Assembly (NCBI RefSeq): GCF_001425165.1
Contig: NZ_LMDU01000013.1
Location: 124,001-188,000, forward strand
Direction of reading: 5' to 3'
DNA: 64,000 nucleotides
Origin: Pelomonas sp. Root405
GTDB taxonomy: Bacteria; Pseudomonadota; Gammaproteobacteria; Burkholderiales; Burkholderiaceae_C
Shown here in pieces: positions 3,666-19,267 of this stretch. Positions within the stretch are counted from its first letter, which is position 1. Every line of letters begins with the position of its first letter. Under the pieces are notes generated by a model, which had not been told where the DNA came from, did no database searches, and saw only the letters and a program-made list of their open reading frames with translations. The position numbers were made by a program, and so were the translations under genes.

Positions 3666-3666
3666 A

Positions 3667-3993
3667 TCAAAACGGGAATTTCATCCCCGGAGGCATGGGC
3701 ATGCCCTGCGTCAGCTTGCCCATCTTCTCGCTGCTCGTCGCCTCGGCACGGCGGGCCGCGTCGTTGAAGGCGGCGGCCACGAGGTCTTCCAGCATGTCCT
3801 TGTCATCAGCCAGCAGGCTGGGGTCGATGGTGACGCGGCGGACTTCGTTCTTGCAGGTCATGACGACCTTGACGAGGCCGGCGCCGCTCTGGCCCTCGAC
3901 CTCGATGCTGGCGAGTTCTTCCTGCGCCTTCTTCAGGTTGTCCTGCATCGCCTGGGCCTGCTTCATCAGACCGGCGAGTTGGCCTTTCATCAT
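3667..3993 (-). CDS. ybaB: YbaB/EbfC family nucleoid-associated protein
   Basis: A 108-aa protein starting [28 protein letters not shown], the typical N-terminal helix, followed by the core [26 protein letters not shown] and a C-terminal [12 protein letters not shown]. YbaB forms homodimeric tweezers that bind DNA with little sequence specificity. It sits 13 nt downstream of dnaX and upstream of recR, the order conserved across most proteobacteria. Length is normal for the family. Confidence 0.95.
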
Positions 3994-4006
3994 GATCGTG
4001 TCCTTG

Positions 4007-5869
4007 TCAAAGAGTGGGAGTCAGCGGCTGCACGGAGCCCGGCAAGATGCGCGCCGACGAAAATTGGGAAAGCAGCGTCCGTGTCATCGGATGTTGGGCG
4101 GCGAGGTCCTCCGCAGCCCGTTGCTGTGCCTCGGTGCGGGCCACGGTGCGCAGCGCAATCGAGTCCTCGGCGACGCCGACCTCGATGTGGAGCTGTGCAT
4201 CCAGCGCCGCTTCGAGCTTGGCGACGAGGGCCGGTGCGCGCAGCGATTCGCGCTCGACCCGCAAGGTCCAGGCCTCACGGCCGTCGACGGTGCGGCGCGC
4301 AAGTGCCTGCGCCTGGCGGGCCAGCTCGGCGGTCATCCCGACCAGGTTGAGGGCCGCGACGCGTTCGGCCCATTGCGCGCCCTCGGCGGTCTCGCGCAAC
4401 ACCGCACGGCGCGGCGCTTCGACATCCCGCGCGGCGGCGGGAACGGATGCCGGCGCATCGTCCGCCTCCATCCACGGCGGCGGCGCATCGTCGGGCGGCG
4501 GGCCGTCCATGTCGTCGTCCGCCTGGGCGTCGACTTCAACGGGGCGCGGACGCAGACGGTCGCTGAGTTTGGGGGCGGATGGCTCGGCTGCCATGGGCGC
4601 CGCAACCACCGGCGCCGGCGTGAAGCCCTTGGGCGTCGCGACCGGTGCCAGGACAGGCGCTGCGACCGGCGCCGGCGGCGCCACCTTAGGCAACGGCACC
4701 GCGACGACGGCCTTGGCCACCGCGGGCGGCCTCACCAGGGCCGCGGCCTTGATCGGCTTGGCGCTGGTGCCCGCCGGCCGGAAGGCCAGCATGCGCAGCA
4801 GCACCATCAGCAGGCCGGCGTACTCATCCGGTGCCAGGTGCAGCTCGGCGCGGCCGTGCAGGGCCATGCTGTACATCAGCTGAATCTCGTCGGCCGGCAG
4901 CGCGGCGGCCAGGCGGCGGATCTCGGCGGTCTCGGTGTCGGCATCGTCCAGCGCGGTGGGCGCGGCCTGCGCCAGCGCCATCTGCTGGAAGAGCGTGGCC
5001 AGGTCCTCCAGCGTGCCCGCAGCCGACAGGCCGGCACCACGCAGCGCATCGGCCTGGGCAACGACGGCCTCGCCGCTGGCGGCAGCCAGTGCATCGACGA
5101 TGGCGACGACATGACCGCGGTCGACGCTGCCCAGCATCTGGCGCACGCCCGCTTCGGTCAGTGAGCCGGCACCGAAAGCAATCGCCTGGTCGGTCAGCGA
5201 CAGGCCGTCGCGCATGGAGCCCCGCGCGGCACGCGACAGCAGCCGCAGCGCGCCCGGCTCGGCCGGCACGTTCTCGGCACCGAGCACATTGCCGAGGTGC
5301 ATCTGCACGTCCGCCGCTGCCATCGGCCGCAGGTTGAACTGCAGGCAGCGCGACAGCACGGTGACCGGCACCTTCTGCGGGTCGGTCGTGGCCAGCACGA
5401 ACTTCAGGTAGTCGGGCGGCTCCTCCAGCGTCTTCAGCATCGCGTTGAAGGCGGTGTTCGACAGCATGTGCACTTCGTCGATCATGTAGACCTTGAAGCG
5501 CCCGACGACCGGCTTGTAGACGGCTTGGTCCAGCAGTTGCGAGATCTCCTCGACACCGCGGTTGGACGCCGCGTCCAGTTCCACGTAGTCGACGAAGCGA
5601 CCCGAATCGATGTCCCGGCAGGCGTGGCAGACACCGCAGGGCTGGGCCGTGATACCGCCCGCGCCGTCCGGCCCCACGCAGTTCAGGCTCTTGGCCAGGA
5701 TGCGCGACACCGTCGTCTTGCCGACGCCACGGGTGCCCGTGAACAGATAGGCGTGGTGCAGGCGCCCCTGCGTCAACGCGTTGGCCAGGGCCTGCACGAC
5801 GTGTTCCTGGCCAACGAGCTGCTCGAAACTCTGCGGACGGTATTTGCGGGCCAGGACCTGGTAACTCAT
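4007..5869 (-). CDS. dnaX: DNA polymerase III subunit tau/gamma
   Basis: The clamp-loader ATPase of the replisome. The start ATG at 5869 gives [21 protein letters not shown], the invariant DnaX N terminus; the frame stays open further upstream only as antisense of the PurM-like gene. Walker A is GTRGVGKTT (residues 45-53), the zinc module uses Cys64, Cys78, Cys81 and Cys84, and Walker B/sensor 1 are MIDEVHML and [18 protein letters not shown] Pro/Ala-rich linker (about 370-480) leads to a C-terminal domain that resembles tau domain V. Total 620 aa. I found no A-AAA-AAG slippery heptamer, so a separate gamma product by frameshifting is not predicted. Divergent from the PurM-like gene with only 33 bp between starts. 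Confidence 0.95.
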
Positions 5870-5888
5870 CCGCAGGATTCTAGGCGTC

Positions 5889-5894
5889 GATAAT
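5889..5894 (+). promoter_or_regulatory. -10 element directly before the PurM-like gene
   Basis: GATAAT lies 8 nt before the ATG at 5903. A transcript from it would start within about two bases of the initiation codon. The 33-bp space shared with divergent dnaX leaves no room for a conventional leader. No convincing -35 is visible, so this is a sequence-based candidate only. Confidence 0.45.
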
Positions 5895-5902
5895 CCCGCC
5901 CC

Positions 5903-7012
5903 ATGACCTCGCAAGCCCCCCTCACCTACGACCAGGCCGGCGTCAATTACGACCTGATCGACCCGCTCAAGATCACCGCGCAACGCGCCGCCGCCGCCAC
6001 CGGCGCCCACCTGGGCGCACATGGCTTCACCGAAGTGAAGGCCTCGCGCGGCGAATCGGCCTATGTGGTGGACGTGGGGCCCTTCTACCTGGCGTCCATC
6101 GTCGAATGCCTGGGCACCAAGACGCTGGTGGCCGACGAGATGGCCAAGTTGACGGGCAAGAGCTACTTCGCCGGCATCGCTCAGGACACCATCGCGATGG
6201 CCGTCAACGACCTGATCACCGTCGGCGCGACGCCGCTGGTCGTGCAGGCCTACTGGGCCGCGGGTGGCAGCGACTGGTTCGGCGACGCGCAGCGCGCCCA
6301 GGCGCTGGTGGCCGGCTGGAAGGCCGCCTGCGACACCTGCCAGGTCGCCTGGGGCGGTGGCGAGACGCCCGCGTTGGCCGGCATCGTGGAAGACGGCCGC
6401 ATCGACCTGGCCGCGTCCTGCACCGGCCTGATCAACCCCAAGGAGCGGCTCTCGGTCGGCGACAAGCTGGGCGCTGGCGACGCCATCGTGCTGCTGGCCT
6501 CCAGCGGCATCCATGCCAACGGCCTGAGCCTGGCGCGCAAGCTGGCCGAGCGCCTGCCCCAGGGCTATCTGACCGAGATCGAACCGGGTCTGACGTACGG
6601 CGAAGCGCTGCTCGCACCGACTGCCCTTTATTCCCCCGTCACCGAGGCGCTGTGGAAGGCCGGCATCGCGCCCCACTACTGCGCCAACATCACCGGCCAC
6701 GGCTGGCGCAAGCTGTTGCGCCACCCGAGCGCGCTGACCTATCGCATCCACACCGTGCCGCCCAAGACCGCGGTACTCGACTTCATCCAGAAGCAGGCCG
6801 GCCAGGACGACCGCGAGGCCTATTCGACGCTCAACATGGGCGCCGGATTCGCCATCTTCGTCAAGGCCGACGACGCCGAGCGCACCGCCCAGGTCGCGCG
6901 CGATTGCGGCATCCAGGCCTGGGTGGCCGGCACGGTCGAGGCGGGCGAGAAGCAGTTGTTGATCGAGCCGCTGAACATCCGCTTTAGCGAAGACGACCTG
7001 GCATTGCGCTGA
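5903..7012 (+). CDS. PurM-like protein (AIR synthase-related)
   Basis: 369 aa of the AIR synthase superfamily, whose PurM member makes 5-aminoimidazole ribonucleotide from FGAM and ATP. Retained family features are LTYDQAGVNYD at the N terminus (like SYKDAGVDID), LGTKTLVAD, AVNDLITVGATPL, the glycine-rich GGGETPAL and SSGIHANGLSLARKL, and YSTLNMGAGFAIF near the C terminus. It is divergent: the canonical V-S-G-T-D-G-V-G-T-K loop is shortened to SIVECLGTKTL, and it is longer than E. coli PurM (345 aa). It may be a paralogue with altered substrate or an unusual true PurM. It stands alone, divergent to dnaX, outside any purine operon. Confidence 0.72.
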   Translation: MTSQAPLTYDQAGVNYDLIDPLKITAQRAAAATGAHLGAHGFTEVKASRGESAYVVDVGPFYLASIVECLGTKTLVADEMAKLTGKSYFAGIAQDTIAMAVNDLITVGATPLVVQAYWAAGGSDWFGDAQRAQALVAGWKAACDTCQVAWGGGETPALAGIVEDGRIDLAASCTGLINPKERLSVGDKLGAGDAIVLLASSGIHANGLSLARKLAERLPQGYLTEIEPGLTYGEALLAPTALYSPVTEALWKAGIAPHYCANITGHGWRKLLRHPSALTYRIHTVPPKTAVLDFIQKQAGQDDREAYSTLNMGAGFAIFVKADDAERTAQVARDCGIQAWVAGTVEAGEKQLLIEPLNIRFSEDDLALR

Positions 7013-7162
7013 AGTGTCCGGTCCACAGCTCCCGAGGGCCGAGCGCCGGGCTGCTCCCAAGCCGGCCCGTCTGGTGATGTGCAAGCGGGGCATTCCCCGC
7101 GAGCATCGCCGCCCGGTTGGGCTGTCCTGCGTTCGGCAGCGCAAGCCCGGACGAGGGGCATC

Positions 7163-7549
7163 GTGACCTGGTACTACACCCAGATGGTCCAGTGGCATGT
7201 GTGGCTGGCCTGGTGCAGCGTGGGCCTGTTCTTCGCGCGCGGCCTGCTGTTTCAGTTCGGCGCGCCGCAGCTCCAAGGCATCGCCAAGGACGCGCGTCTG
7301 CTGGTGGTGGTCTTCAGCGTCAATGCCTGCCTCGTCGTCACTGGCTTGGGCCTCTGGGGCGCCATCGGCTACCACCCCGTGCGCGATTGGTGGCTCGGGG
7401 TGAAGCTCGTCGCGCTGCTCGGCTACGTGGCTTGCGGCCATTGGGCATTGAGCCAGGCGCGCCTTCACCTAATCGGCTATCTCACCGCGTTGGCCCTGCT
7501 GGCGCTGGCAATGGACCTTTCGATCAACCGCCAGTTTTTGCCCGGGTAG
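7163..7549 (+). CDS. SirB2-like four-helix membrane protein
   Basis: 128 aa with about four transmembrane helices: LAWCSVGLFFARGLLFQFG, LLVVVFSVNACLVVTGLGL, WLGVKLVALLGYVACG and LIGYLTALALLALAMDLSI. The pattern H-x-x-L-A near the start, RG in helix 1 and WL-x-x-K-L in helix 3 resembles the SirB family, but the match is by eye. The GTG at 7163 is chosen because a GAGGGG ribosome binding motif sits 5 nt upstream; the in-frame sequence further upstream lacks protein-like character. The stop lies just before the promoter and body of the SRP RNA. Function unknown. Confidence 0.65.
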   Translation: MTWYYTQMVQWHVWLAWCSVGLFFARGLLFQFGAPQLQGIAKDARLLVVVFSVNACLVVTGLGLWGAIGYHPVRDWWLGVKLVALLGYVACGHWALSQARLHLIGYLTALALLALAMDLSINRQFLPG

Positions 7550-7552
7550 AAT
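7547..7552 (+). promoter_or_regulatory. -10 element of the SRP RNA gene
   Basis: TAGAAT starts inside the last codons of the preceding membrane gene and ends 7 nt before the predicted 5' end of the 4.5S RNA at 7560. The spacing fits a sigma-70 promoter. The -35 region is poor. Confidence 0.55.
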
Positions 7553-7559
7553 GATCAGC

Positions 7560-7653
7560 GACGGGCCTCCCCGCATGGAAGCGCGCCCAACCGGGTCAGG
7601 TGGGGAACCAAGCAGCCCTAAGCGTTGCAACCAGTGCCGGGGTCAGGCTCGTC
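7560..7653 (+). ncRNA. ffs: Signal recognition particle RNA (4.5S, small bacterial type)
   Basis: The conserved apical core is present: GGTCAGGTGGGGAACCAAGC at 7594-7613, followed by AGCCCTAAGC, the site of Ffh binding and the GGAA tetraloop. The ends pair perfectly as a terminal stem: GACGGGCCT at 7560-7568 with AGGCTCGTC at 7645-7653 (one G-U pair). Length of about 94 nt is normal for the small SRP RNA. With Ffh it targets nascent inner-membrane proteins to FtsY. It lies in the dnaX neighbourhood, as in many Burkholderiales. Confidence 0.93.
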
Positions 7654-7730
7654 ACCCTCCCCTCCCTTCTTGAAGCCGACTGCGGCGATGTCGTTGGCCC
7701 CCCTGGCCACGGCCACTTGCCAAGCTGAGC

Positions 7731-7759
7731 GAAAAAAAGGGAAGGCTTGTCGCCTCCCC
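7731..7759 (-). terminator. Rho-independent terminator of the envelope gene cluster
   Basis: Read on the minus strand, GGGGAGGC-GACAA-GCCTTCCC (one mismatch) is followed by seven T residues. It lies about 20 nt after the stop of the secreted-protein gene at 7782. On the + strand there is no T run, so it should not stop SRP RNA transcription. Confidence 0.8.
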
Positions 7760-7781
7760 CCTCGTCAGGCAGTGCCCCGAG

Positions 7782-8195
7782 CTAGTTCGGCGACTTCGGG
7801 ATATCGGTCGAACGCACAGTCAGCGACTTGATCTGGCCGCCGCCGCTCACGCTGCCGTCGACCTGTCCTTCACGCACACGACGCTCGCACAGCTCGCGGT
7901 CTTCGCCGCGCTGAGCCTGGCAACGCTTGAGCGCGTTGGCGGCCCACTGCTCGGCCCTGTCGTCGGCGGAGATCAGCTTGCCTTGGCGGGCCTGGGCGTA
8001 GGCCGCTCCGGCTTCGCGCAGGCAAACATCGCGGGGCTGACTGGTCTTGGCGGTCAGGCAGTCGGCCTTCTCGCGCTCGTACTGCAGCCGCAGCGGGTCG
8101 GCATTCTTCGCCGCGGGGCCGGCAGCCTGGGCGAGGCCACCGCAGGCCAGCAGGCTCGCAACCAGCCATCGGTTTGTCGTTAAACGTCTTGTCAT
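7782..8195 (-). CDS. Small secreted protein of unknown function
   Basis: 137 aa. An N-terminal signal peptide, MTRRLTTNRWLVASLLACGG ending near LAQA-AG, precedes a mature region rich in charged residues with four cysteines in a regular arrangement (EKADCLT, PRDVCLREA, ALKRCQAQR, DRELCERRV). That C-x13-C-x29-C-x11-C spacing suggests two disulphides in the periplasm. The ATG at 8195 is chosen for the AGGAGA ribosome binding site 6 nt upstream. It is the last gene of the cluster with the OmpA-like and DUF4398 lipoproteins, 37 nt after the former, and is followed by a clear terminator. I do not recognise a named family. Confidence 0.75.
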   Translation of the reverse strand: MTRRLTTNRWLVASLLACGGLAQAAGPAAKNADPLRLQYEREKADCLTAKTSQPRDVCLREAGAAYAQARQGKLISADDRAEQWAANALKRCQAQRGEDRELCERRVREGQVDGSVSGGGQIKSLTVRSTDIPKSPN

Positions 8196-8232: not shown

Positions 8233-9147
8233 TTAGCCACGCGAGCGAACCGGCTGGTTGTCGTTGGAGATATAGACCTCGACGCGACGATTCATGGCGC
8301 GGTCCGAGGTGCTCGAATTGCTGGCCACCGGGTATTGCTCGCCGTAGCCGCGCGTGGCGATGCGGGTCGGGTCCACGCCCCGGGCGCGCAGCGCGTCGGC
8401 CACCGCTTGCGAGCGCCGCTGCGACAGCGTCATGTTGGTTGCGTCGCTGCCGGTGCTGTCGGTGAAACCCTCGATCAGCACACGGCGGTCAGCGTGCTGG
8501 TTGAGGTAGTTGGCCAGCTTGCCGATGGCTTCCTGCGCCGCCGGCCTGATCTCGGCACGTCCCGTCTCGAACAGCACATCACCCAGCGTGACGAGCATGC
8601 CGCGATCCGTCTGCTTGGCTTGCAGGTCCGCCAGCTCGCGCTGGAGGGCGTCAGCCTGCGCCTGGGCTTGGGCAGCCGTCATCGTGGCCGCTGCGGCCTG
8701 CTGGCGCGCGGCGTTTGCATCGGCATTGGCGTTGGCCGCCTGGGCTTGCGCCGATGCCGCCTGGTTCTGGGCGCGACGGGCGCGTTCGGCGTTGGCGTCG
8801 GCGCGAGCACGCTCGCGGTCGGCCTCGGCAGACTTGATGGCTTCTTCATCCGTCTGCGCCTTGGCCAGGGCCATGGCGGTGCGCGCCTGGGTGGCGGCCA
8901 CATAGGCGGCTGAATCGATGTCGGCAGGCGCCTCGCGCTTGACGCTGAGTTCATCGGCAACGCGCAGGGAGTCGGCCGCCTTCTTCAATTCCAGCGGCGC
9001 GTACTTCGCGACTGCCGGGTCAGCCTCGGCGCTGCGCACGGTAGCGCGCGCCTGCTGCAGTTGCGGCGTGACGGTGGGCGTGCTCGCACAGCCTGCAAAC
9101 AGGGCGGCAGCTGCGGCCAGGGCGGTCAGGGTCTTGATGGTTCGCAT
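8233..9147 (-). CDS. OmpA-family lipoprotein with an N-terminal DUF4398 domain
   Basis: 304 aa. The ATG at 9147 follows an AAGAGG ribosome binding site and yields a lipoprotein signal, MRTIKTLTALAAAAALFAGC. The next 75 residues (ATVRSAEADPAVAKYAPLEL to ARTAMALAKA) fit DUF4398. A long Ala/Gln/Arg helix (about 95-175) is probably a coiled coil. The C-terminal OmpA-C domain has LGDVLFETGRAEI, VLIEGFTDSTGS, the LSQRRSQAVADAL helix and a final NRRVEVYIS; the Asp and Arg that bind diaminopimelate in peptidoglycan are in place. It is likely an outer-membrane-anchored wall linker. It lies 19 nt after a second DUF4398 lipoprotein gene. Confidence 0.88.
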   Translation of the reverse strand: MRTIKTLTALAAAAALFAGCASTPTVTPQLQQARATVRSAEADPAVAKYAPLELKKAADSLRVADELSVKREAPADIDSAAYVAATQARTAMALAKAQTDEEAIKSAEADRERARADANAERARRAQNQAASAQAQAANANADANAARQQAAAATMTAAQAQAQADALQRELADLQAKQTDRGMLVTLGDVLFETGRAEIRPAAQEAIGKLANYLNQHADRRVLIEGFTDSTGSDATNMTLSQRRSQAVADALRARGVDPTRIATRGYGEQYPVASNSSTSDRAMNRRVEVYISNDNQPVRSRG

Positions 9148-9166
9148 GGCAATCCTCTTATTCAAT

Positions 9167-9535
9167 TCAGGAACGGTTCAGCTGCGACTGCAGCTGCTGG
9201 ATGCTTTCGCGCACTTCGGACAGCGCGCGTCCAGAGCGAGCCGAGCGCGCGGTCGCCTGGGCCAGGGCCGCATCCGCGGCGGCCTGGTCGGCGAGCTGGC
9301 GCGCCAGCACGTAGTCCTTGCGGGCCATGGCCTGGTTGGCGCGCGCCAGCTTGTCGCGTGCTGCCGCCAGTTCAGTGGGGGCTTCCGCGGCGTTGCCCGT
9401 GGCCTGCTCGACGGAGGCATTGGCAACGGCCATTTGTTCCTTGGGGGCGTCGCCCGTGGTCGAGCATGCCGACAGAGCTGCAGCAGCAAATGCCGCCAAC
9501 AAAACAGCTCGGCCATTCATCGAATGGTGATTCAT
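9167..9535 (-). CDS. DUF4398-domain lipoprotein
   Basis: 122 aa. The start ATG at 9535 is preceded by AGGAG and gives MNHHSMNGRAVLLAAFAAAA with the lipobox LSAC. The mature part (VANASVEQATGNAAEAPTEL, then LARANQAMARKDYVLARQLA) is a helical repeat matching DUF4398 and echoes the same domain in the following OmpA-like lipoprotein, so the pair probably arose by duplication and addition of an OmpA domain. First gene of the three-gene envelope cluster. Its precise role is unknown. Confidence 0.82.
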   Translation of the reverse strand: MNHHSMNGRAVLLAAFAAAALSACSTTGDAPKEQMAVANASVEQATGNAAEAPTELAAARDKLARANQAMARKDYVLARQLADQAAADAALAQATARSARSGRALSEVRESIQQLQSQLNRS

Positions 9536-9711
9536 AGGAACTCCTGTAGTTTGAAATACCCAGCGTTCGCGCATCACGCCCCGCCGGGGTCGGGTTCTTT
9601 GAGGATGCCCATCCAGTATTCGCCCGCGATGGCGTGCCACCCGTCAGTGCTCGGCGGCAATGGGTGTGGGAGACGCCCTACAGCTGCGCGATGCAGCTGC
9701 GCGCAACCGTC

Positions 9712-12093
9712 TCAGCCGGTTGCCTGGCGGAAGGCCATCACGGCCTGGTTGCGCAGCGTTCGCAGCAACGAGAGTTCTTTCTCGCCCAGCTGCACGGCAC
9801 CGGCCTGGGGATGGTCGGCGTAGATCAGGCCCAGGGGCGAGCCCTTCAGTACCAGAGGCAGCAGCAGAAAGCTCTGCGCCTGCAATTCGCCACGGAACCA
9901 GCTCGGCAACCGAGTGGCGATGTTGGCGGCCCGCGCGTCCTGGATCAGCGTGTCGACACCCTTCAGGCAGACCGCGGCGAACAGATCCGGCGGTTGCGCG
10001 GTCAGGTCCACGCGCAACAGCGGCGCCAGGCGCTCGACATCGGCACCCACGCCCAGCCGGCCCGTCAGCGCCTGGCCGCGCGCATCACGCAGGCAGAAGA
10101 CGACGCGGCGGAAGCCCAGGGCGCGGTAGATGGTCTCCAGGATCATGCGCAGCACCGCGTTGAGCTGGAAGTTGTCGACCATGGCATCAGTGATGTCCTG
10201 CACCCCGGCGGCCAGCAACTGCGTGGCTTGGTCGGCGGGCGACGTCTTGCCCTTGTCGTGGGTGCGCTCCATCACTTGCGTGGGCGCGAGTTCATGGGCC
10301 GTCAGCGAGTCATGCACCGACGGCGTCAGCGGCGCCAGCAGGCGCTGGGCACGCGAGTCCTTGGGCAGGTGCAGCTCCAATGCCTCGGTCATCTGCGCGA
10401 GATGCTGGCGCGCGGTGTCGGCCGCCTGCTCGAACGCCTCGGCGCTCAGGCCCAGCGCGCGTGCATGGCGCTGCGCCATCGCGCGAAGCTTGGCATGGGC
10501 CTGCTCGGGCGGCGTGTTCAGGATCAGATCGGCCATGTCGTTGCTGGCGCGGGCCAGCCAGCGCTGGCGTTCGGTGCCCTCTTCCAGCAGCCGCTGCGGC
10601 GCCTCGCCGAGGGGACGGCGCATGGCGCGCTGCAGGCTGTCGGGCAAGCCCCATTGCTTGGCCACGCCCAGACCCAGGGCCTCGTAGCTCATGCCCAGCA
10701 CCTGGGCAGACGCGGCCGCCTCGCTGAGGGCGGCATGGCCATCCTCGGGCGGGCTGACGAGGCGGCGCACGGCGTCGGCCTCTTCCGGGAAATAGAACTC
10801 GGTCAACGAGCGGCCGAGGTGGTGGAACATCGCGCCCAGAAAGGCCTCCTCAGCCTCACGCGGGTTCGGGCAAAGCTCACGCGCCAGCGAGGCCGCCATC
10901 AGCGAACGCAGATAGTCTTCCCGCAGTCGCTTGGCATGGCCCTTGTTCTCCATGCGCTCCAGCAACACCAAACTCAGGGCCAGGTTGCGGATGCCGGCAA
11001 AGCCGATCAGCGCGACGGCCCGAGACACCGTGCTGATGCCACCGCCCCCGGCGTGCCGGTACTGCGCCGTGTTGACGAGGCGCAGCAGCTTTTGCGTCAG
11101 CGCCACGTCCTTGAGGATCTCGTTGGTCAGGCTGGCCAGGCTCTCGTTCTCGGACTGCGTCAGGCGCTGGATGCGGCCGATGGCATCCGACAGCGCCGGG
11201 AAGTCGCTCTTGTGGCGCATGCGGCGCAGCAGGAAGTCCAGCACCGGCGCCTCCTGGGCGTCGGCATCGGGCTCGGCCACGGGGCGCAGCCAGGCGGCCA
11301 ACGCGTCGCGCAGCAGCGCCGCGCTTGGCCAGCGCGCCGATGGCTCGCGCGCCAGGCCGCGCTGCACGATGGCGCGCAGCGCGTCGTCCACGCTGGCATC
11401 CAGGCCCGAGGGCAGCAGGAGGTCGGTGGTCTGCACGCGCTGGATGGCGCGCCAGGGGTCGGGGTCGTGGTTGAGGCGCTGCCCGCTCAGCATCTCGGCC
11501 AGCATGATGGCGGCGGCAAACACGTCCATCTGTGGATGCGGCGGTGCGCCACGCGCCGCCTCCGGCGAGATATAGCCCGGCGTACCGACGATGCGCGACG
11601 GCGCGTTCGCATTGGTCGACACCCGAGCGGCGATGCCGAAGTCCATCACGCGCGGCCGGCCGCGCGCATCGATCAGGATGTTGCTGGGCTTGAGGTCGCG
11701 GTGCACCAGGCCGGCCGCGTGGGCGGCGGTGAGGCCGTCCAGGATGCCCAGCATGAGGGTCACGGCTTCGGCCGCCGTCGGGCGCGGCCCGGCGCGCAGG
11801 CGCTGGGTCAGCGTGCCACCTGAGACGTACTCGAAGACCAGGTAGGAGCGACCGCCCTGGGCGTCGGCCTCGAAGACCGGCACGATGTTCGGATGGGTCA
11901 GGCGGCTGACGGCGCGGGCCTCATGCAGCCACTCGTCAACGCTGCCAGGCTCGGCCGCGGCCTTCAGCAGCTTGACGGCCACCTCCCGGTCCAGCAACGG
12001 GTCATGCGCGAGCCACACCGTCGCCTGCGCGCCCTCGCCCAGGCGCTGAATCAGGCGGAAGCGGCCGAGCTGGGGAGGCAGGTCGTCGATCAT
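9712..12093 (-). CDS. Serine/threonine protein kinase fused to HDOD and GAF domains
   Basis: 793 aa. Residues 11-270 form a complete Hanks-type kinase: P-loop LGEGAQATVW, catalytic Lys41 (VAVK), HRDLKPSN at 131-138, DFG at 151-153 and GTPGYISPE as the activation/P+1 segment. Residues about 295-490 are an HDOD domain (LTNEILKDVALTQKLLRLVN, TVSRAVALIGFAGIRNLALS, AMFHHLGRSLTEFYFPEEA). The C-terminal 170 residues (VDNFQLNAVLRMILETIYRA through SFLLLPLVLKGSPLGLIYAD) look like a GAF domain. No membrane segment, so cytoplasmic. It starts 9 nt after the stop of the pseudokinase-HDOD gene, so the two form an operon. Ligand and substrates are unknown. Confidence 0.9.
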   Translation of the reverse strand: MIDDLPPQLGRFRLIQRLGEGAQATVWLAHDPLLDREVAVKLLKAAAEPGSVDEWLHEARAVSRLTHPNIVPVFEADAQGGRSYLVFEYVSGGTLTQRLRAGPRPTAAEAVTLMLGILDGLTAAHAAGLVHRDLKPSNILIDARGRPRVMDFGIAARVSTNANAPSRIVGTPGYISPEAARGAPPHPQMDVFAAAIMLAEMLSGQRLNHDPDPWRAIQRVQTTDLLLPSGLDASVDDALRAIVQRGLAREPSARWPSAALLRDALAAWLRPVAEPDADAQEAPVLDFLLRRMRHKSDFPALSDAIGRIQRLTQSENESLASLTNEILKDVALTQKLLRLVNTAQYRHAGGGGISTVSRAVALIGFAGIRNLALSLVLLERMENKGHAKRLREDYLRSLMAASLARELCPNPREAEEAFLGAMFHHLGRSLTEFYFPEEADAVRRLVSPPEDGHAALSEAAASAQVLGMSYEALGLGVAKQWGLPDSLQRAMRRPLGEAPQRLLEEGTERQRWLARASNDMADLILNTPPEQAHAKLRAMAQRHARALGLSAEAFEQAADTARQHLAQMTEALELHLPKDSRAQRLLAPLTPSVHDSLTAHELAPTQVMERTHDKGKTSPADQATQLLAAGVQDITDAMVDNFQLNAVLRMILETIYRALGFRRVVFCLRDARGQALTGRLGVGADVERLAPLLRVDLTAQPPDLFAAVCLKGVDTLIQDARAANIATRLPSWFRGELQAQSFLLLPLVLKGSPLGLIYADHPQAGAVQLGEKELSLLRTLRNQAVMAFRQATG

Positions 12094-12102
12094 GGGCCGT
12101 GC

Positions 12103-13881
12103 TCAGGAACCGCCACGGGCGGACAGGCGTTCGCGCAGGGATGAAGCATTCGGTTCAGCCTCGTCAGTTGGCTTGGCCGGCGCTGTCGGCGGCTGTTTCG
12201 TGCCGGGGTTGAGCGCTTCCATGACCTCGCGCAGGCCGATGCCCAAAGCCTTGGCGTAACGCCGCGTCGCCGCTTCCAGCGCCGGGCGGCGGCGCGCTTC
12301 GGGCAGGCTGAGGGCATCGACCAGCTCGTTGGCAAAGCTGCAGGTCAGGCGGATGGCGTCCGCATCGCTGCGCGCCGGGTGCACGGCTGCGTCCAGCGGC
12401 TGGCGGCGGATCATCTGCTGCAATTCGTCGCCCAGGCCCCAGTGGCGGGCCACCGCAATGCCCAGCGCATCCAGGTCGCAGCCCAGCACGGCATAGGCGG
12501 CGGCCTGCTCGCTCATGGCCACAGGTTTGGGCTGCTCCTCGGTCGGCTCGGGCGGCACCATCAGCTGGCGGATTTGCTGGGCGTCATCGGGGAAGTGGTA
12601 CTGCAGCAGCAGGCGGCCGAGGTTCTGCATGACCGTGATCAGGTGCACCACCTCGCCGTCATATCCGGCCGGGCGCAGCGCCTGGGCGATCTGGGCGGCC
12701 TTGGCGACTCGCGCCATCAGCTGGCGCAGCATCTCGGCGGCCACGGCGGCCAGCGGCCCCGGCCACGGCTTGAGCGCATTGGCCGCCAGTTGCACGCCGT
12801 CCAGTCCCAGCATCTGGATGGCGCGCTGCATGTTGAGCACGGTCTCACCATGGTGGCCAGCCTGCTTGAGCGCGTTGTTGACGCGACGCACGAGTTCCAG
12901 GCTCAAGGCCATGTCCCTGAGCACGAACTCGGACAACGCGCTGGCATGCTGGGCCTCCAGGCCGGACCCACCGGTGAAGCGATGCAGACCGGTCAGCGTC
13001 GTGGGCAGGTGGCCGATGCGTTGCAGCTTGTCCAGCAGCAGCACGACCGGGCCGCCGTTGTCGTGGGCGGCCGCCTGGCGCCAGCCGTCCAGCGCGCGCC
13101 AGAAGCTGCGCGCCAGGTGGTAGCGCTGGCGCAGCTGGCGGTCGGTGGCGCGGTTGCAGATGGCGCGCAGCGGGTCGGGGATCGGGTGGGGCGTCTCCCA
13201 GCCCAGGCGCACCATCTCACGCCCCAGCGGCTGCATCTGCTGCACAACATGCTGCAGGTCGTTTTCCTCCAGCACCGGCTTGCCGCTGAGGATGCGGTTG
13301 AGCAGCAGGCCGACGCAGAGCACGTCTTCCTCGGCCGACTCGCGCACGGCGCGTCGCGTCACCGCGTTGAAGTCGACCGTGGCGGGGAAGACCTCCTGCG
13401 CAACCTCCAGGCCGGCGAGGCGCACCTTGTCGTTGGCGTCGATGACCACGCATGCCGTCTGGATGTCGCGATGGGCATGGCCAGCGTCATGGGCAAAGGC
13501 CAGGCCTTCGAGCAGCTGGGCGATCCAGCCAGCGGCGTCGATGGGCAGGGGCGCGCTCTGGCGCGCCAGGCGCTCATCCAGGGTCTCGCCCAGGGCCCGG
13601 TCATAGGCGACATAGGGCCAGCTCTCGACCTGATCGATCTCGAAGACCGGCGCGAGGTTGGGATGCTGCACGCGCCCGCCGGCCTGCGCCATGCGCAGCC
13701 AGTGCTCCAGCGCGGCCGCGCTGTTGGGCTTGTCGCGTGGCATGCAAAGCACCAGCTCCTGGCCATGCCGCGAATCGAAGACGCGCCACATCAGGCTGCG
13801 TGCGCTCTTGGACAACAGCGCACGCAACTCGAAGCGGCCAAAGCTTCTGAGCGGCGTCGCGGTGGGCTGGGATTCGGGCAC
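12103..13881 (-). CDS. Pseudokinase-HDOD protein
   Basis: 592 aa with the same kinase-HDOD layout as its neighbour but with the catalytic motifs eroded: the P-loop is LLSKSARSLMW with no glycines, the VAVK lysine position reads LVLCMP, HRDLKPSN became HRDIQTACVV (137-146), and DFG became AGL (about 156-158). The HDOD part (about 285-490) keeps LRDMALSLELVRRVNNALKQ, NMQRAIQMLGLDGVQ and MQNLGRLLLQYHFPDDA. The start is GTG at 13881 with no clear ribosome binding site; the frame stays open upstream to about 14043 without ATG, GTG or TTG. A regulatory partner of the active kinase downstream is a reasonable inference, not shown. Confidence 0.85.
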   Translation of the reverse strand: MPESQPTATPLRSFGRFELRALLSKSARSLMWRVFDSRHGQELVLCMPRDKPNSAAALEHWLRMAQAGGRVQHPNLAPVFEIDQVESWPYVAYDRALGETLDERLARQSAPLPIDAAGWIAQLLEGLAFAHDAGHAHRDIQTACVVIDANDKVRLAGLEVAQEVFPATVDFNAVTRRAVRESAEEDVLCVGLLLNRILSGKPVLEENDLQHVVQQMQPLGREMVRLGWETPHPIPDPLRAICNRATDRQLRQRYHLARSFWRALDGWRQAAAHDNGGPVVLLLDKLQRIGHLPTTLTGLHRFTGGSGLEAQHASALSEFVLRDMALSLELVRRVNNALKQAGHHGETVLNMQRAIQMLGLDGVQLAANALKPWPGPLAAVAAEMLRQLMARVAKAAQIAQALRPAGYDGEVVHLITVMQNLGRLLLQYHFPDDAQQIRQLMVPPEPTEEQPKPVAMSEQAAAYAVLGCDLDALGIAVARHWGLGDELQQMIRRQPLDAAVHPARSDADAIRLTCSFANELVDALSLPEARRRPALEAATRRYAKALGIGLREVMEALNPGTKQPPTAPAKPTDEAEPNASSLRERLSARGGS

Positions 13882-14043
13882 GGTGCGGGCGAAGTCGTGG
13901 CAGATACAGATGTAGCCCGCATTGGACCCCAGGCTTGCACCTGAAGAAGGGCAGTGCAGACCCTGAATTGCGATGGATTTCTGCGCCAGTCCAGGTCTTG
14001 CGTGCCTCCCAAGGCCAGTGGACCGGCGCCAGACCGTCTCGCT
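13882..14043. other. Spacer between hrpA and the pseudokinase gene
   Basis: 162 bp between two minus-strand genes. The minus-strand frame of the pseudokinase is open through nearly all of it but lacks a standard start codon. I see no strong hairpin with a T run and no convincing promoter pair, so it remains unclear whether the kinase operon has its own promoter here. Confidence 0.4.
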
Positions 14044-17000
14044 TCAGGACAGTTGGGACCAGACTTTGTCGAGTCGTTTCACGCTAACCGGCTGCGGCGT
14101 GCGCAACTCCTGTGCGAACAGGCTGACCCGCAATTCCTCCAACTGCCAGCGGAAATCATCGAGCCGAGCATCGCGCACGCCCTTGAGGTCGGCGAGCCGG
14201 CGTGTGTAACGCTGCTCAAGCGGCTTCACCTCGCCCATCAGCCTGGCGTCTCGGGCCGGGTCGGCGCGCAGCTTGTCCAGCCGGGTCGTGATGGCCTTGA
14301 GGTAGCGCGGCAGGTGCTGCAGCTGGGCCCAGGGCGTGTCCAGCGCAAAGCGTTTGGGCACCAGTCGCTGCAACTGGGCGGTGACGTCGTCGCCGACGTC
14401 CTTGGCGGGGCGCGAGTCCTTGAGCTTGCGCGCTGCATTGGCGAGCTCCTGCAGCACGGCATGGGCGGCCCGGGCGACCTCCTGGGCGATGAGGTTGAGC
14501 CGGCTGCGACCTTCCTCGATGCGCTTCTTGAAAGACATCGGGTCGGTCGGCAGCGGGTCGGCCAGGAAGGCGAGGTCCAGTGCCACACCGATGATCTGGT
14601 CGCGCAGCTCTTCGGCCGTGCCCAGTCCCATGTAAAGCACCGACATGCGCTGCAGGTCCGGAATGTTTTTCTCCAGGAACTTCAGCGGTTCCTTGAGCTG
14701 CAGCGCGATCAGACGGCGCAAGCCCGCGCGGTGCTTGGCGGCAGCGACCTCCGGCTCGTCGAAGACCTCGATCTCGACATGGGCGCCTTTGTCGATCAGC
14801 GCGGGGAAGCCGATCAGCGTCTGCCCGCCCTTGCGCACTTCCAGCAGCTCGGGCAGTTCGCCGAAAGTCCAGTCGGTGTACGCCTGGGCGGCGTCTCTCG
14901 CGGGTGCCGCGGGCTTGACGATCTCGGCACGGATGCCCTTGCCCGCCACCGGCGCCGCGGCAGGCTTGGCGGCTTCCGCGGCCGGCAGCTTCAGCGCCGC
15001 CAGCGCCTGGAAGGCCGACCGCGCCTGCCCGCCCAGCTCGGCCTTCAGCGCAGCGAGCTGCCTGCCCTGGCCGAGTTGACGGCCATGCTCGTCCACCACG
15101 CGGAAGTTCATGAACAGGTGCGGCGGCAGCTGCTCCAGCTTGAAGTCGTTGCGCTGCACCGCGAGCTGGGTGCGGTCTTTCACGGCCCTGAGCAGCGTGT
15201 CGACCAGGCCACCCTGGCAGAACGGCTGCAGTTCGACGAACTCGGCGACGAAGTCCGGCAGCGGCGTCAGGCGCGCGCGCGGCTTCTGGTGCAGGCTCTT
15301 CAGCAAGGCTGTGACCTTGGCGGCAAGCATGCCGGGCACCAGCCATTCGGCGCGCTCCTCGCTGACCTGGTTGAGCGCAAAGATGGGTACGGTCACCGTC
15401 AACCCGTCGCGCGCATCGCCAGGCTCGTGCAAATAGGTCGCCGCGCAGTCCACGCCGCCCAGGCGGATCACCTTGGGGAAGGCCTCGCTGGTGACGCCGG
15501 CCGCCTCGTGGCGCATCAGCTCGTCCTGGCTGAGCTGCAGCAGCTTGTCGTCGCTCTTGCTGGCCTCGCGCCACCACTTCAATAGCGTGGCGCCCGAGAA
15601 CACGTTCGCCGGCAGCTTGTCGTCGTAGAAGGCGTAGATCAGCTCATCGTCGACCAGCACGTCCTGGCGGCGCGACTTGTGCTCCAGCGCCTCGACCTTG
15701 GCGATCTGGCGCCGGTTGTGGCCCAGGAAGGGCAACTGGCGTACCAGCTCGTCGGGCAGGTCGTCATTGACCAGCCCCTCGCGAATGAAGATCTCGCGCG
15801 CGGCCCGTGGGTCGACGCGGCCGAAGTTCACGCGCTTGTTGCTGTAGAGCACGATGCCGTACAGCGTCGCCCGCTCCAGCGCCACGACCTCGGCAGCCTT
15901 CTTCTCCCAGTGCGGCTCCAGCAGCTGGGTTTTGATCAGGTGGCCGGCGATGGGCGGCAGCCATTGTGGCTCGATGTTGGCGATGCCGCGGCCGTACAGG
16001 CGCGAGGTGTCCACCAGCTCGGCTGCGACGATCCAGCGGCCGGGTTTCTTGCTCAAGTGGGCGCCGGGGTGGCGATAGAACTTGATGCCGCGCGCGCCGA
16101 GATACCAGTCTTCGTCATCGCTCTTCTGGCCGATGTTGCCGAGCAGACCGGCCAGCATGGACAGGTGCAGCTGTTCGTAGGTGGCGGGGCTCTGGTTCAG
16201 GCGCCAGCCATGTTCGGCGACGACGGTGAGCAGCTGAGAGTAGACATCGCGCCATTCGCGCACGCGGCGCGGGCTGATGAAGTTCTCGCGCAGCAGTTGC
16301 TCATGGCGGCGGTTCGACAGTTTGTGCTCCGCACCGCCGCCCTTGGAGTCTTCGAGCCACTTCCACAGCTTGAGGTAGCCGCTGAACTCGCTCTTCTCGT
16401 CGTCGAACTTCTTGTGCTTCTCATCTGCCGCCTGCGCGGCTTCCATCGGCCGGTCGCGCACATCCTGGCCGCTCAGCGCCGACGCGATCACCAGCACCTC
16501 GGACAGCGCTTCGCGGTTCTTCGCCTCCAGGATCATGCGACCCACGCGCGGGTCCAGCGGCAGGCGCGACAGCTCCTTGCCCAGCGGTGTCAGCTCGTTG
16601 TCGTCGTCGGTCGCGCCCAGTTCGGCCAGCAGCTGGTAGCCATCCGCAATCGCCTTGGGCCGCGGCGGCTCCAGGAAGGGGAAGCGCTCGACCTCGCCCA
16701 GGTGCAGGGACTTCATGCGCAGGATCACGCCGGCCAGCGATGAGCGCAGGATTTCCGGATCGGTGAACTTCGGCCGTTCGTTGAATTCCTTCTCGCTGTA
16801 GAGACGGATGCAGATGCCGTTGCTGACCCGCCCGCAGCGGCCGGCGCGTTGATTGGAGGCCGCCTGGCTGACCGGCTCGATCAGCAGTTGCTCGACCTTG
16901 TTGCGGTAGCTGTAGCGCTTGACCCGTGCGAGGCCAGGGTCGATGACGTAGCGAATGCCCGGCACGGTCAGCGAGGTCTCGGCCACGTTGGTGGCCAGGA

Positions 17001-17883
17001 CGATGCGTCGCTGGCCGTGCGGCTCGAAGACCTTGTCCTGCTCGGCCTGGGACAGCCGCGCGAACAGCGGCAGAACCTCCACACCCGGCGGATGGTGCTT
17101 CCTCAAGGCTTCGGCCGCCTCGCGGATCTCGCGCTCGCCGGGCAGAAAGACCAGCACGTCGCCGCCGCCCTCGCGCCACAGCTCGTCCACCGCGTCGGTG
17201 ATGGCGTTGTTCAGGTCGTACTCGCGGCTTTCCTCGAAGGGCCGGTAACGCTGCTCGACCGGGTACAGCCGCCCCGACACCGTCAGCACTGGCGCCGGCC
17301 CTTTGCTGGACTCGAAATGCCGCGCAAACCGGTCGGCATCGATGGTGGCCGACGTGACGACGATCTTCAGGTCCGGCCGGCGCGGCAGCAGCTCGCGCAA
17401 ATAGCCAAGCAGGAAATCGATGTTGAGGCTGCGCTCGTGGGCCTCATCGATGATGAGGGTGTCGTAAGCCTTCAGCAGCGGGTCGCTCTGGGTCTCGGCC
17501 AGCAGGATGCCGTCCGTCATCAGCTTGACCGACGCCGTCTTGGCCAGCCGGTCCTGGAAGCGGACCTTGTAGCCGACCACATCGCCCAACGGCGTCTTCA
17601 GCTCCTCGGCGATGCGCTTGGCCACGCTGCTGGCGGCGATGCGCCGCGGCTGGGTGTGGCCGATCAGTCCGCCGCCGTTGATGCGCCCACGGCCCATCGC
17701 CAAAGCAATCTTGGGCAGTTGCGTGGTCTTGCCGGAGCCGGTCTCGCCGCAGACGATGACGACCTGGTGCTCCGCCATCGCGTGCGCGATCTCGTCACGC
17801 CGCGCCGAAACAGGAAGCGATTCAGGGAAGGAAATGGAAAGAGCCGGTTGAGGCAACCGGCTCTCGGGTCGTTCTGAATTCAT
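14044..17883 (-). CDS. hrpA: ATP-dependent RNA helicase HrpA (DEAH box)
   Basis: 1279 aa, the usual size for HrpA. Walker A is CGETGSGKTTQ (residues 45-55), followed by TQPRRIAASSVA (motif Ia), DEAHERS (motif II), VTSATID (motif III), LVFLPGEREI (motif IV), ATNVAETSLTVPGI (V) and QRAGRCGRV (VI). The long C-terminal region matches the OB-fold and DUF3418 extension of HrpA. HrpA unwinds RNA and in E. coli resolves stalled ribosomes and takes part in fimbrial mRNA processing. The ATG at 17883 (MNSERPESRLPQPAL) is preferred to in-frame upstream codons that lie in the divergent promoter. Divergent from argA with 40 bp between starts. Confidence 0.95.
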   Translation of the reverse strand: MNSERPESRLPQPALSISFPESLPVSARRDEIAHAMAEHQVVIVCGETGSGKTTQLPKIALAMGRGRINGGGLIGHTQPRRIAASSVAKRIAEELKTPLGDVVGYKVRFQDRLAKTASVKLMTDGILLAETQSDPLLKAYDTLIIDEAHERSLNIDFLLGYLRELLPRRPDLKIVVTSATIDADRFARHFESSKGPAPVLTVSGRLYPVEQRYRPFEESREYDLNNAITDAVDELWREGGGDVLVFLPGEREIREAAEALRKHHPPGVEVLPLFARLSQAEQDKVFEPHGQRRIVLATNVAETSLTVPGIRYVIDPGLARVKRYSYRNKVEQLLIEPVSQAASNQRAGRCGRVSNGICIRLYSEKEFNERPKFTDPEILRSSLAGVILRMKSLHLGEVERFPFLEPPRPKAIADGYQLLAELGATDDDNELTPLGKELSRLPLDPRVGRMILEAKNREALSEVLVIASALSGQDVRDRPMEAAQAADEKHKKFDDEKSEFSGYLKLWKWLEDSKGGGAEHKLSNRRHEQLLRENFISPRRVREWRDVYSQLLTVVAEHGWRLNQSPATYEQLHLSMLAGLLGNIGQKSDDEDWYLGARGIKFYRHPGAHLSKKPGRWIVAAELVDTSRLYGRGIANIEPQWLPPIAGHLIKTQLLEPHWEKKAAEVVALERATLYGIVLYSNKRVNFGRVDPRAAREIFIREGLVNDDLPDELVRQLPFLGHNRRQIAKVEALEHKSRRQDVLVDDELIYAFYDDKLPANVFSGATLLKWWREASKSDDKLLQLSQDELMRHEAAGVTSEAFPKVIRLGGVDCAATYLHEPGDARDGLTVTVPIFALNQVSEERAEWLVPGMLAAKVTALLKSLHQKPRARLTPLPDFVAEFVELQPFCQGGLVDTLLRAVKDRTQLAVQRNDFKLEQLPPHLFMNFRVVDEHGRQLGQGRQLAALKAELGGQARSAFQALAALKLPAAEAAKPAAAPVAGKGIRAEIVKPAAPARDAAQAYTDWTFGELPELLEVRKGGQTLIGFPALIDKGAHVEIEVFDEPEVAAAKHRAGLRRLIALQLKEPLKFLEKNIPDLQRMSVLYMGLGTAEELRDQIIGVALDLAFLADPLPTDPMSFKKRIEEGRSRLNLIAQEVARAAHAVLQELANAARKLKDSRPAKDVGDDVTAQLQRLVPKRFALDTPWAQLQHLPRYLKAITTRLDKLRADPARDARLMGEVKPLEQRYTRRLADLKGVRDARLDDFRWQLEELRVSLFAQELRTPQPVSVKRLDKVWSQLS

Positions 17884-17891
17884 TGAGCGCG

Positions 17892-17898
17892 TATTGTC
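17892..17898. promoter_or_regulatory. Shared -10 region between divergent hrpA and argA
   Basis: The 40-bp interval contains one A+T-rich site. Read on the + strand it gives TATTGT, 26 nt before the argA ATG; on the minus strand it gives GACAAT, 9 nt before the hrpA ATG. If both are used, polymerases for the two genes would compete for the same bases. No clear -35 elements are visible. Confidence 0.35.
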
Positions 17899-17923
17899 CC
17901 GCAGCCATGGAGAATCCCGCCCC

Positions 17924-19267
17924 ATGACCGGTCTTGTCTTCCCTCACACCTTCGTGCCCTGGTTTCGCGCCGTGGCGCCGTACATCCATGCCTACCGTGG
18001 CGAGACCTTCGTCGTCGGCATGCCGGGGGAGCTGATTGCCGCCGGCAAGCTGAATGCCTTCGTGCAGGACCTGGCCATCCTGCATGCCATGGGCATCAAG
18101 ATCGTCCTGGTGCATGGCTTTCGTCCCCAGGTCAACGAGCAACTCGCCGCCAAGGGCCAGACCCCGCGCTTCAGCCACGGTCGCCGCATCACCGACGCCG
18201 TGGCGCTGGACTGCGCGCAGGAAGCCGCTGGCCAGCTGCGCTTCGAGATCGAGGCCGCGTTCAGCCAAGGCCTGCCCAACACACCCATGGCCAATGCCAC
18301 GGTGCGTGTCGTCTCGGGCAACTTCCTGACCGCTCGCCCGGTCGGCATCGTTGACGGCGTGGACTTTGAGCATTCAGGCCTGGTGCGCAAGGTCGACGGC
18401 GCCGCCATCCAGCGCGCCATCGACATCGGCGCCATCGTGCTCTTGTCGCCGTTCGGCTTCTCACCCACCGGCGAGGCTTTCAACCTGTCGATGGAAGACG
18501 TCGCCACGTCGGCGGCCATCGCGCTGCAGGCCGACAAGCTGCTGTTCGTCTGCGAGGTGCCCGGCGTGCCCGAGAACCCAGCCGACCCCGACAGCGCCAT
18601 CGACACCGAGTTGGCACTGGCCGACGCCGAGCGCATGCTCGCCAACGCCGGCCCGGCGCCAGAGCCGACGGACGTCGCCTTCTACCTGCGCCACTGCGCC
18701 GAAGCCTGCCGCGCCGGCGTCGAGCGCTCTCACATCATCCCGTTCGCCGTTGACGGCGCGTTGCTGCAGGAGGTCTATACCCACGACGGCATCGGCACCA
18801 TGGTCGTCGACGAGAAGCTGGAGAGCCTGCGCGAGGCCAGCGCCGACGACGTGGCGGGCATCATTCAGCTCATCGAACCCTTCGAGCGCGACGGCACGCT
18901 GGTCAAGCGCAGTCGCACGGAGATCGAGCGCGATGCCGAGATGTATACGGTCATCGAACACGATGGCGTCATCTTCGGCTGCGCGGCGCTCTACCCTTAT
19001 GTGGAGGCCCGTACCGCCGAAATGGCCGCGCTGACGGTGTCCGCCGAAGTGCAGGGACAGGGCGACGGCGACCGGCTGCTGAAAAGAATCGAACAGCGCG
19101 CCAAGGCCATGGGCCTGGACAGCATCTTCGTGCTCACCACGCGAACCAAGCACTGGTTCATCAAACGCGGTTTCCAGCAGGTCGACCCGGAATGGCTGCC
19201 CGAGGAACGCAAGCGCAAATACAACTGGGACCGGCGCTCGCTGGTGCTGATCAAGAAATTCAACTAA
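17924..19267 (+). CDS. argA: N-acetylglutamate synthase (amino-acid N-acetyltransferase)
   Basis: First step of arginine biosynthesis: acetyl-CoA plus glutamate to N-acetylglutamate. The 447-aa product begins with an acetylglutamate-kinase-like domain (IHAYRGETFVVGMPGELIAA, KIVLVHGFRPQVNEQL, VVSGNFLTARPVGIVDGVDF) that carries the arginine feedback site in this family, and ends with a GNAT domain (about 300-447: GCAALYPYVEARTAEMAALT, QGDGDRLLKRIEQRA, FVLTTRTKHWFIKRGFQQ). The ATG at 17924 has GGAGA 10 nt upstream. Followed by a strong terminator, so probably monocistronic. Confidence 0.95.
   Translation: MTGLVFPHTFVPWFRAVAPYIHAYRGETFVVGMPGELIAAGKLNAFVQDLAILHAMGIKIVLVHGFRPQVNEQLAAKGQTPRFSHGRRITDAVALDCAQEAAGQLRFEIEAAFSQGLPNTPMANATVRVVSGNFLTARPVGIVDGVDFEHSGLVRKVDGAAIQRAIDIGAIVLLSPFGFSPTGEAFNLSMEDVATSAAIALQADKLLFVCEVPGVPENPADPDSAIDTELALADAERMLANAGPAPEPTDVAFYLRHCAEACRAGVERSHIIPFAVDGALLQEVYTHDGIGTMVVDEKLESLREASADDVAGIIQLIEPFERDGTLVKRSRTEIERDAEMYTVIEHDGVIFGCAALYPYVEARTAEMAALTVSAEVQGQGDGDRLLKRIEQRAKAMGLDSIFVLTTRTKHWFIKRGFQQVDPEWLPEERKRKYNWDRRSLVLIKKFN

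Follow-up and report, generated by a model that had tools for sequence, protein, structure and literature searches.

Introduction

Bacterial pseudokinases are many and remain largely unexplored experimentally (PMC12599244). One described group, ActPs3 (MviN of Mycobacterium), is mainly actinobacterial, often carries a transmembrane region and has every catalytic motif degraded, HRD included; no kinase is among the operon genes given for it, and MviN dimerises back to back and has the live kinase PknB as its regulator (PMC12599244). PknB-type dimers, both back-to-back and face-to-face, have been described (PMC6333020). In a further group, DLHK, helicase or DNA2 domains are frequent partners of the pseudokinase, and basic residues have been proposed to stand in for metal in the cleft (PMC12599244). 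Here we describe a pseudokinase with an HDOD domain, PSE, encoded beside a complete kinase-HDOD-GAF protein, ACT, in a stretch of 64,000 nucleotides from Pelomonas sp. Root405 (contig NZ_LMDU01000013.1, positions 124,001 to 188,000), which we call the window and in whose positions coordinates are given; PSE and ACT denote both the genes and their proteins. We see an even chance that PSE is an autonomous, non-catalytic switch of one origin, with a refitted cleft and an HDOD output, which works without ACT.

Results

Loss of catalytic residues in PSE and their retention in ACT

An earlier note on this DNA, made from the sequence alone, had described two adjacent genes with a 9-nucleotide gap and a common kinase-HDOD layout, of which only the second kept Lys41, HRDLKPSN and DFG. 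This description held, as both open reading frames carry Pfam Pkinase and HDOD matches across a nine-base spacer, and ACT has K41, HRDLKPSN at residues 131-138 and DFG at 151-153. The loss of P-loop glycines, lysine and DFG from the first gene was likewise borne out: the PSE of the window has Ser in all three P-loop glycine columns, with Cys46 in place of the VAIK lysine and GLE in place of DFG. It also has Met at the alpha-C glutamate, lacks the catalytic Asn and most of the activation segment, and reads HRDIQTAC in the catalytic loop, where the HRD aspartate (D139), of which the note made no mention, is retained.

The same positions were read in aligned homologues. The 101 PSE rows come from 57 named loci, 42 further loci and the window protein, which is entered twice, and are not the same set as the 68 PSE-bearing genomes described below; the 99 ACT rows include the window protein twice and two rows from another family. 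Frames starting after query residue 30 or ending before residue 540 were left out, which omitted the PSE of G090 and G138 (each in two frames) and of G094 (L124), and the ACT of L045 and L084. G218 also lies outside the rows, and 18 of the 20 genomes with PSE but no full-length ACT (PSE-only genomes) are represented. The ACT of L084, read apart, has VALK, HRDLKP and DFG.

The VAIK lysine is found in 0/101 PSE rows as against 99/99 ACT rows, and the DFG aspartate in 0/101 (Gly in 85, Ala in 14) as against 99/99. The alpha-C glutamate survives in 9 and the Asn+5 in 6 of the 101 PSE rows, and each is present in 99/99 ACT rows; Lys+2, intact in 99/99 ACT rows, has become Gln in 92/101 PSE rows. 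The HRD aspartate is retained in 97/101 PSE rows and 99/99 ACT rows. Structural residues persist in PSE (HRD His 99/101, alpha-F Asp 99/101, alpha-I Arg 101/101), the alpha-F Asp and alpha-I Arg each standing in 99/99 ACT rows, and ACT keeps DFG and the PE of APE in 99/99 rows and the HRD Arg in 96/99. A Hanks-type (bacterial serine/threonine kinase, bSTK) pseudokinase is recognised by loss of at least one of the VAIK lysine, HRD aspartate and DFG aspartate, and PSE has lost the lysine and the DFG aspartate.

A probable kinase fold with an apparently rebuilt cleft

Pkinase was matched in 35 of 36 PSE members (E 0.001) and PF08668, the HDOD family, in 36/36. The kinase-sized region and intact HDOD domain that the earlier note ascribed to PSE are both above their Pfam cut-offs in the window protein (40.0 bits against 31.7 for Pkinase; cut-off 22.9 for HDOD, scores in Table 1), although the HDOD score is far under that of ACT. 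The PSE and ACT profiles align in hhalign at probability 100, the 536 aligned columns taking in both kinase and HDOD. Among solved kinases the best match to the PSE profile is 4eqm, a bacterial kinase (E 2.5e-20); the solved sequences nearest to the ACT kinase domain are StkP and PknB. These profile matches suggest that PSE retains a protein kinase fold. The fusion to a COG3899 ATPase domain by which CP1 is recognised is absent, kinase and HDOD being the only Pfam matches in PSE. The window's own 5.8-Mb genome (G000) has 18 Pkinase and 7 HDOD matches above the Pfam cut-offs, and PSE is the weakest such entry in both lists.

At the position of ACT's glycine loop, PSE has the consensus L-L-x-K-S-x-x-S/T-x-x-W. 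Residue 25 is Lys or Arg in 98/100 PSE rows, at a column that is variable in ACT; S26 is Ser or Thr in 96/100, the third glycine column is Ser or Thr in 94/100, and W32 is Trp in 100/100, as it is in ACT. P48 and R49 are each conserved in 98/100 rows, and D139 is Asp in 96/100 distinct rows. When PSE was thinned to 67 rows under 85% identity and its 268 columns were ranked by conservation, K25 came 8th, D139 21st, S26 22nd, Q141 49th and R49 52nd, while the former VAIK lysine, alpha-C Glu and Asn columns ranked 99, 227 and 184. The PSE cleft looks rebuilt, not decayed, with a set of its own made up of K/R-S in the P-loop, Arg49 and H-x-D-x-Q. As residue 25 is Lys or Arg in 17 of 18 PSE-only rows, the cleft looks to have a new, ACT-independent job; and since it has lost the residues that normally hold metal, it more likely binds without catalysing, much as has been proposed for DLHK pseudokinases (PMC12599244).

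Conserved adjacency of PSE and ACT

Absence of the pair from related genomes would have told against the earlier note, which had called for a search for conserved adjacency. The pair proved to be conserved. Some match was obtained in 35 of 40 relatives searched, and in the window's genus (20 genomes, its own included) PSE and ACT are adjacent in 19; the one exception, G010, has PSE at the end of one contig and ACT on another. A scan of species genomes yielded 57 named loci (Roseateles, Pelomonas, Paucibacter, Mitsuaria and others) at 46-90% identity, and an ACT homologue is downstream on the same strand in 57/57, that of L045 being broken into two frames. The gap between the genes, read from rows with script-chosen starts (L084 has no gap value and L045 no start codon), runs from a 4-base overlap of stop and start (11/57) to 218 bases.

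In a survey of 200 genomes of the family, some of them incomplete, matches were assigned manually to PSE or ACT, with ACT counted among the matches listed, at the top of which the full-length ACT matches stand. Among these, both genes were found in 48 genomes, PSE only in 20, ACT only in 18 and neither in 114, which places PSE in 68/200 genomes and in 47 of 141 genus codes (counted by hand). PSE and ACT are adjacent in 48/48 genomes carrying both. The ACT matches of three of the 18 genomes (of 66 with ACT) that lack PSE, G219, G174 and G163, are at 36-42% identity and may not be orthologues. No fused PSE-ACT protein was seen; a 1430-aa open frame in G225 was considered as such a fusion and rejected, PSE being present in it and ACT absent. 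Across the order, 56 of 300 genomes gave a match. The best seven matches from outside the family (L198-L204) are of ACT type, with HRD and DFG in 7/7 and a VAIK-like string in 6/7, that of L198 not being found by pattern.

Several variants of the two genes were observed in these surveys. PSE is split into two frames in G090 (L116) and G138 (L160) and has a single internal TGA in G115:C1:1595500-1597119; the split in G090 suggests an assembly error, because ACT is split there too. Only the HDOD-GAF half of ACT is matched in G055:C27, G154:C1, G044:C169, G195:C1, G192:C1:1729196 and G067:C24, in frames of 555-654 aa that match at 46-53% identity from about residue 262-283 and apparently have no kinase domain. 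Those of G067 and G192 occur alongside an ACT-less PSE and may be an ACT that moved and lost its kinase. In another family of the order, L134 (G037, 3150-8090, plus strand) holds two adjacent kinase-HDOD-GAF genes with VAIK, HRDLKP and DFG in both, a separate live/live tandem duplication.

Retention of PSE where ACT is missing

Full-length ACT was not found, among the matches listed, in 20 of the 68 PSE-bearing family genomes, so PSE is not confined to genomes with its live neighbour, as the dead member of an obligate pair would be. The gene slot itself was checked in 12 of these 20. In the 12 loci, which share a downstream PurM-like gene, PSE is separated from that gene by 124-1254 bp, too small for ACT, whereas the same slot measures 2576-3317 bp and holds ACT in four paired loci. 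The 12 short slots gave weak ACT matches only (E 0.007 or worse), the longest of 37 residues (L133). Six further PSE-only loci (L180-L183, L185, L186) gave no match to any gene that flanks the pair in the window, so that PSE there lies elsewhere in the chromosome. Rows from 18 of the 20 PSE-only genomes entered a quick-search tree, on which counts of changes are approximate and directionless: ACT switches between present and absent 10 times over 55 PSE rows (9 without L130), and PSE does so 3 times over 53 ACT rows. As ACT-type genes are also found in other families, the changes in ACT are probably losses.

Origin and selection

This tree comprised 114 rows, and 37 of its 111 inner branches are open. 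The 55 PSE rows group as a single clade (SH-aLRT 100) with a long stem (1.37), which meets the family's two ACT groups at an open fork, either before or within them, and outgroup kinase-HDOD-GAF proteins from other families fall outside PSE and the family ACT groups together. A single tandem duplication followed by loss of the GAF domain and of catalysis would fit the tree and the order survey best. PSE would then go back to one event early in the Roseateles/Pelomonas family, in which a kinase-HDOD-GAF ancestor was duplicated, and would have shed the GAF domain and catalysis afterwards.

The strength of selection was estimated as omega by the NG86 method in 23 close sequences of each protein (251/253 pairs usable for the PSE kinase-like domain, 236/253 for ACT). 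For PSE, median omega is 0.175 (kinase-like domain) and 0.188 (HDOD); for ACT it is 0.174 (kinase domain) and 0.166 (HDOD). The dead domain of PSE is under purifying selection similar to that on the live domain of ACT. Where ACT is absent there is no clear sign that selection on PSE is relaxed: measured against the PurM-like protein, PSE divergence has a median of 2.55 in 20 of 32 paired loci (the ones of matching distance range) and of 2.36 in 12/12 PSE-only loci (p=0.63), and kinase-like domain omega is 0.08-0.42 in four PSE-only pairs and 0.19-0.54 in three paired sets.

The locus and its neighbourhood

The features of the two genes are collected in Table 1. PSE and ACT are probably one operon, as the spacing between them is short. 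A scan of positions 11900-14300 gave 0 promoter-like sites and 1 terminator-like site, on the opposite strand, where 0.7 were expected. Upstream of PSE and outside the unit is a helicase gene which we take to be hrpA. After ACT on its strand, at 8233-9640 (minus), are genes that we presume to be OmpA-like and DUF4398-like; this arrangement recurs in 12/57 named loci, and for that reason they are probably outside the unit. An open frame of 521 codons opposite PSE (12379-13944, plus strand) was taken as a high-GC shadow frame.

Table 1. Features of the PSE-ACT locus, in window positions
Feature	Position	Strand	Basis
PSE, pseudokinase-HDOD gene	12103..13881	-	Open reading frame, GTG start, 592 aa
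ACT, kinase-HDOD-GAF gene	9712..12093	-	Open reading frame, ATG start, 793 aa
Spacer, PSE stop to ACT start	12094..12102	-	9 bases, read from sequence
PSE kinase-like domain, about residues 12-268 (predicted)	13078..13848	-	Pfam Pkinase and profile matches
PSE altered P-loop, residues 24-32, S-K-S-A-R-S-L-M-W	13786..13812	-	Row conservation
PSE beta-3, residues 46-49, C-M-P-R	13735..13746	-	VAIK lysine gone, P48-R49 conserved
PSE catalytic loop HRDIQTAC, residues 137-144	13450..13473	-	Aligned rows
PSE DFG position, GLE, residues 157-159	13405..13413	-	Aligned rows
PSE HDOD domain, residues 311-494	12400..12951	-	PF08668, 44.3 bits
ACT kinase domain, residues 13-261	11311..12057	-	PF00069, 146.9 bits
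ACT HDOD domain, residues 299-492	10618..11199	-	PF08668, 109.4 bits
ACT GAF domain, residues 644-787 (PSE without GAF)	9733..10164	-	PF01590, 36.5 bits
hrpA-like helicase gene, upstream syntenic neighbour, outside the unit	14044..17925	-	Upstream in 55/57 named loci

Discussion

In the reading that we prefer, PSE would have kept the kinase fold while its nucleotide cleft was refitted with K/R25-S26, P48-R49 and H137-x-D139-x-Q141. The refitted cleft, the back of the N-lobe or both would bind a ligand or partner and so set the state of the attached HDOD domain, the putative output of PSE. SadB, an HDOD protein, binds c-di-GMP (PMC6543031), which makes a non-enzymatic output or second-messenger site in the HDOD domain of PSE plausible. 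ACT, for its part, would be a live Ser/Thr kinase in its own right that takes its input through GAF; when the two genes occur together they are probably co-transcribed, and their products may cross-talk through an N-lobe heterodimer, or PSE may be a docking site or substrate, but PSE would perform its job without ACT. Going further, it is possible, though doubtful, that PSE founds a family of ligand-sensing pseudokinases in which the ATP cleft has become a metal-free site (x-K-S-x-x-S/T in the P-loop, Arg49, H-x-D-x-Q) for a nucleotide or second messenger, with an HDOD output that requires no kinase and a live twin as an optional second input.

The earlier note had seen in the pair an integrated dead/live device, and part of this stands, namely a selected pseudokinase beside a live paralogue in a conserved pair. 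As an alternative to the autonomous switch, PSE could be an allosteric partner of ACT, whether activator, inhibitor or scaffold, in a hetero-complex formed through back-to-back N-lobes and HDOD contacts, on the pattern of HER3/HER2 or STRAD/LKB1; we find this rather unlikely. The adjacency in 48/48 genomes, an odds ratio of 15 (relatedness uncorrected) for the association of the two genes, the stop-start overlaps and the partial correlation of PSE with ACT distances (0.43) suggest that the two often act in one pathway, and both proteins carry an Arg/acidic pair in the N-lobe (R16 and E81 in PSE, with Arg in 92/100 and Asp or Glu in 96/100 rows; R11 and E75 in ACT, 96/96 each), which we take to correspond to the PknB dimer contact. 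The same Arg/acidic pair may, however, be retained for folding. Dependence on ACT also accords poorly with the 20/68 PSE genomes without full-length ACT, with the 9-10 changes in the presence of ACT on the tree, with the lack of clear relaxation of selection on ACT-less PSE, and with the 18/66 ACT genomes from which PSE is missing; an obligate device of the two is not supported. Just five PSE positions are conserved in paired but not in PSE-only rows, a contrast that is not interpretable in itself.

It is improbable that PSE is an enzyme by a changed mechanism, with its catalytic lysine moved to K25 of the P-loop and Asp139 of HRD as the base. The conservation of K/R25 (98/100 distinct rows) and D139 would suit this, and ATP binding in spite of a missing beta-3 lysine is considered possible for DLHK pseudokinases, in which the HRD Asp is likewise retained (PMC12599244). 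Against it, the metal ligands are gone (DFG Asp 0/101, Asn+5 6/101), the alpha-C Glu is left in only 9/101 rows and the activation segment is mostly deleted. WNK kinases have a relocated lysine at the third P-loop glycine column and an intact DFG; in PSE the third glycine column is Ser or Thr and K25 stands between the first two glycine columns, with no DFG aspartate in any row. That PSE is a functionless, decaying duplicate is hardly credible: its catalytic residues are gone and the gene is in two frames in G090 and G138 with an internal TGA in G115, but it is under purifying selection as ACT is, has been retained as a single clade in 68/200 family genomes and 47/141 genus codes, and is retained where ACT is absent.

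Some observations weigh against the autonomous switch itself. Among P-loop and cleft residues, Q141 is Gln in only 12/18 PSE-only rows, R28 ranks just 204 of 268, and K25 and R49 are placed at the cleft by alignment to ACT and so only putatively line it. Raw identity to the PSE of the window is lower in PSE-only loci (p=0.005), and three PSE-only rows have long branches (L117 1.42, L119 1.3, L122 1.22). The association of PSE with ACT is strong (Fisher p 1e-15, relatedness uncorrected). In distances from 52/57 loci, the partial correlation of PSE is higher with ACT (0.43, HrpA fixed) than with HrpA (0.18, ACT fixed), which speaks for a partnership; this mirror-tree measure is weak, however, as ACT is correlated more strongly still with the unrelated HrpA (0.72, PSE fixed). 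Lastly, the window genome has 16 above-cut-off Pkinase matches besides PSE and ACT, and because of these PSE may rely on a different kinase in ACT-less genomes.

The PSE clade, with an adjacent live sister in 48 genomes and an ACT-less series of 9-10 changes, constitutes a natural comparison series, and the existence of that series makes it a testable question whether a bacterial pseudokinase acts via its live paralogue or alone. The conserved cleft residues K25, R49, D139 and Q141 point to what needs probing.

Comparison with known systems

Literature searches on bacterial pseudokinases, HDOD and GAF found neither the PSE type of architecture and history nor work pairing HDOD with a pseudokinase or a protein kinase, an absence that is weak, as most subscription papers were outside their reach. 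PSE is a real and widespread family of pseudokinases with an HDOD domain, apparently of single origin, in a bacterial class already known as such. In eukaryotes, HER3/HER2, STRAD/LKB1 and IRAK3 likewise unite dead and live paralogues in a pathway; PSE differs in lacking its partner in many lineages. SadB resembles PSE in its non-enzymatic HDOD domain, but its N-terminal domain is YbaK-like and not a pseudokinase (PMC6543031). ActPs3 shares with PSE a bacterial Hanks-type fold with a deleted activation loop, and its scaffold role is among those proposed for PSE (PMC12599244). PSE departs from it in the HDOD domain, in a K-S P-loop of its own and in the HRD Asp (97/101 rows), ActPs3 being marked by full degradation of the catalytic motifs. 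DLHK is, like PSE, proteobacterial, without a transmembrane region and with the HRD Asp present, and the example in its Table 1 has also lost the beta-3 Lys and the DFG Asp (PMC12599244). The catalytic-loop Asn is conserved in DLHK according to the text of that source, though the Table 1 example, Hrdlrpas, is without it (PMC12599244). By description, and not by aligned sequence, PSE differs from DLHK in having this Asn in only 6/101 rows and in its link to HDOD. The closest relatives of PSE are the Burkholderiales kinase-HDOD-GAF proteins represented by ACT, which belong to the same gene family and from which PSE appears to be derived; they are catalytically complete and carry a GAF domain, and PSE is neither complete nor provided with one.

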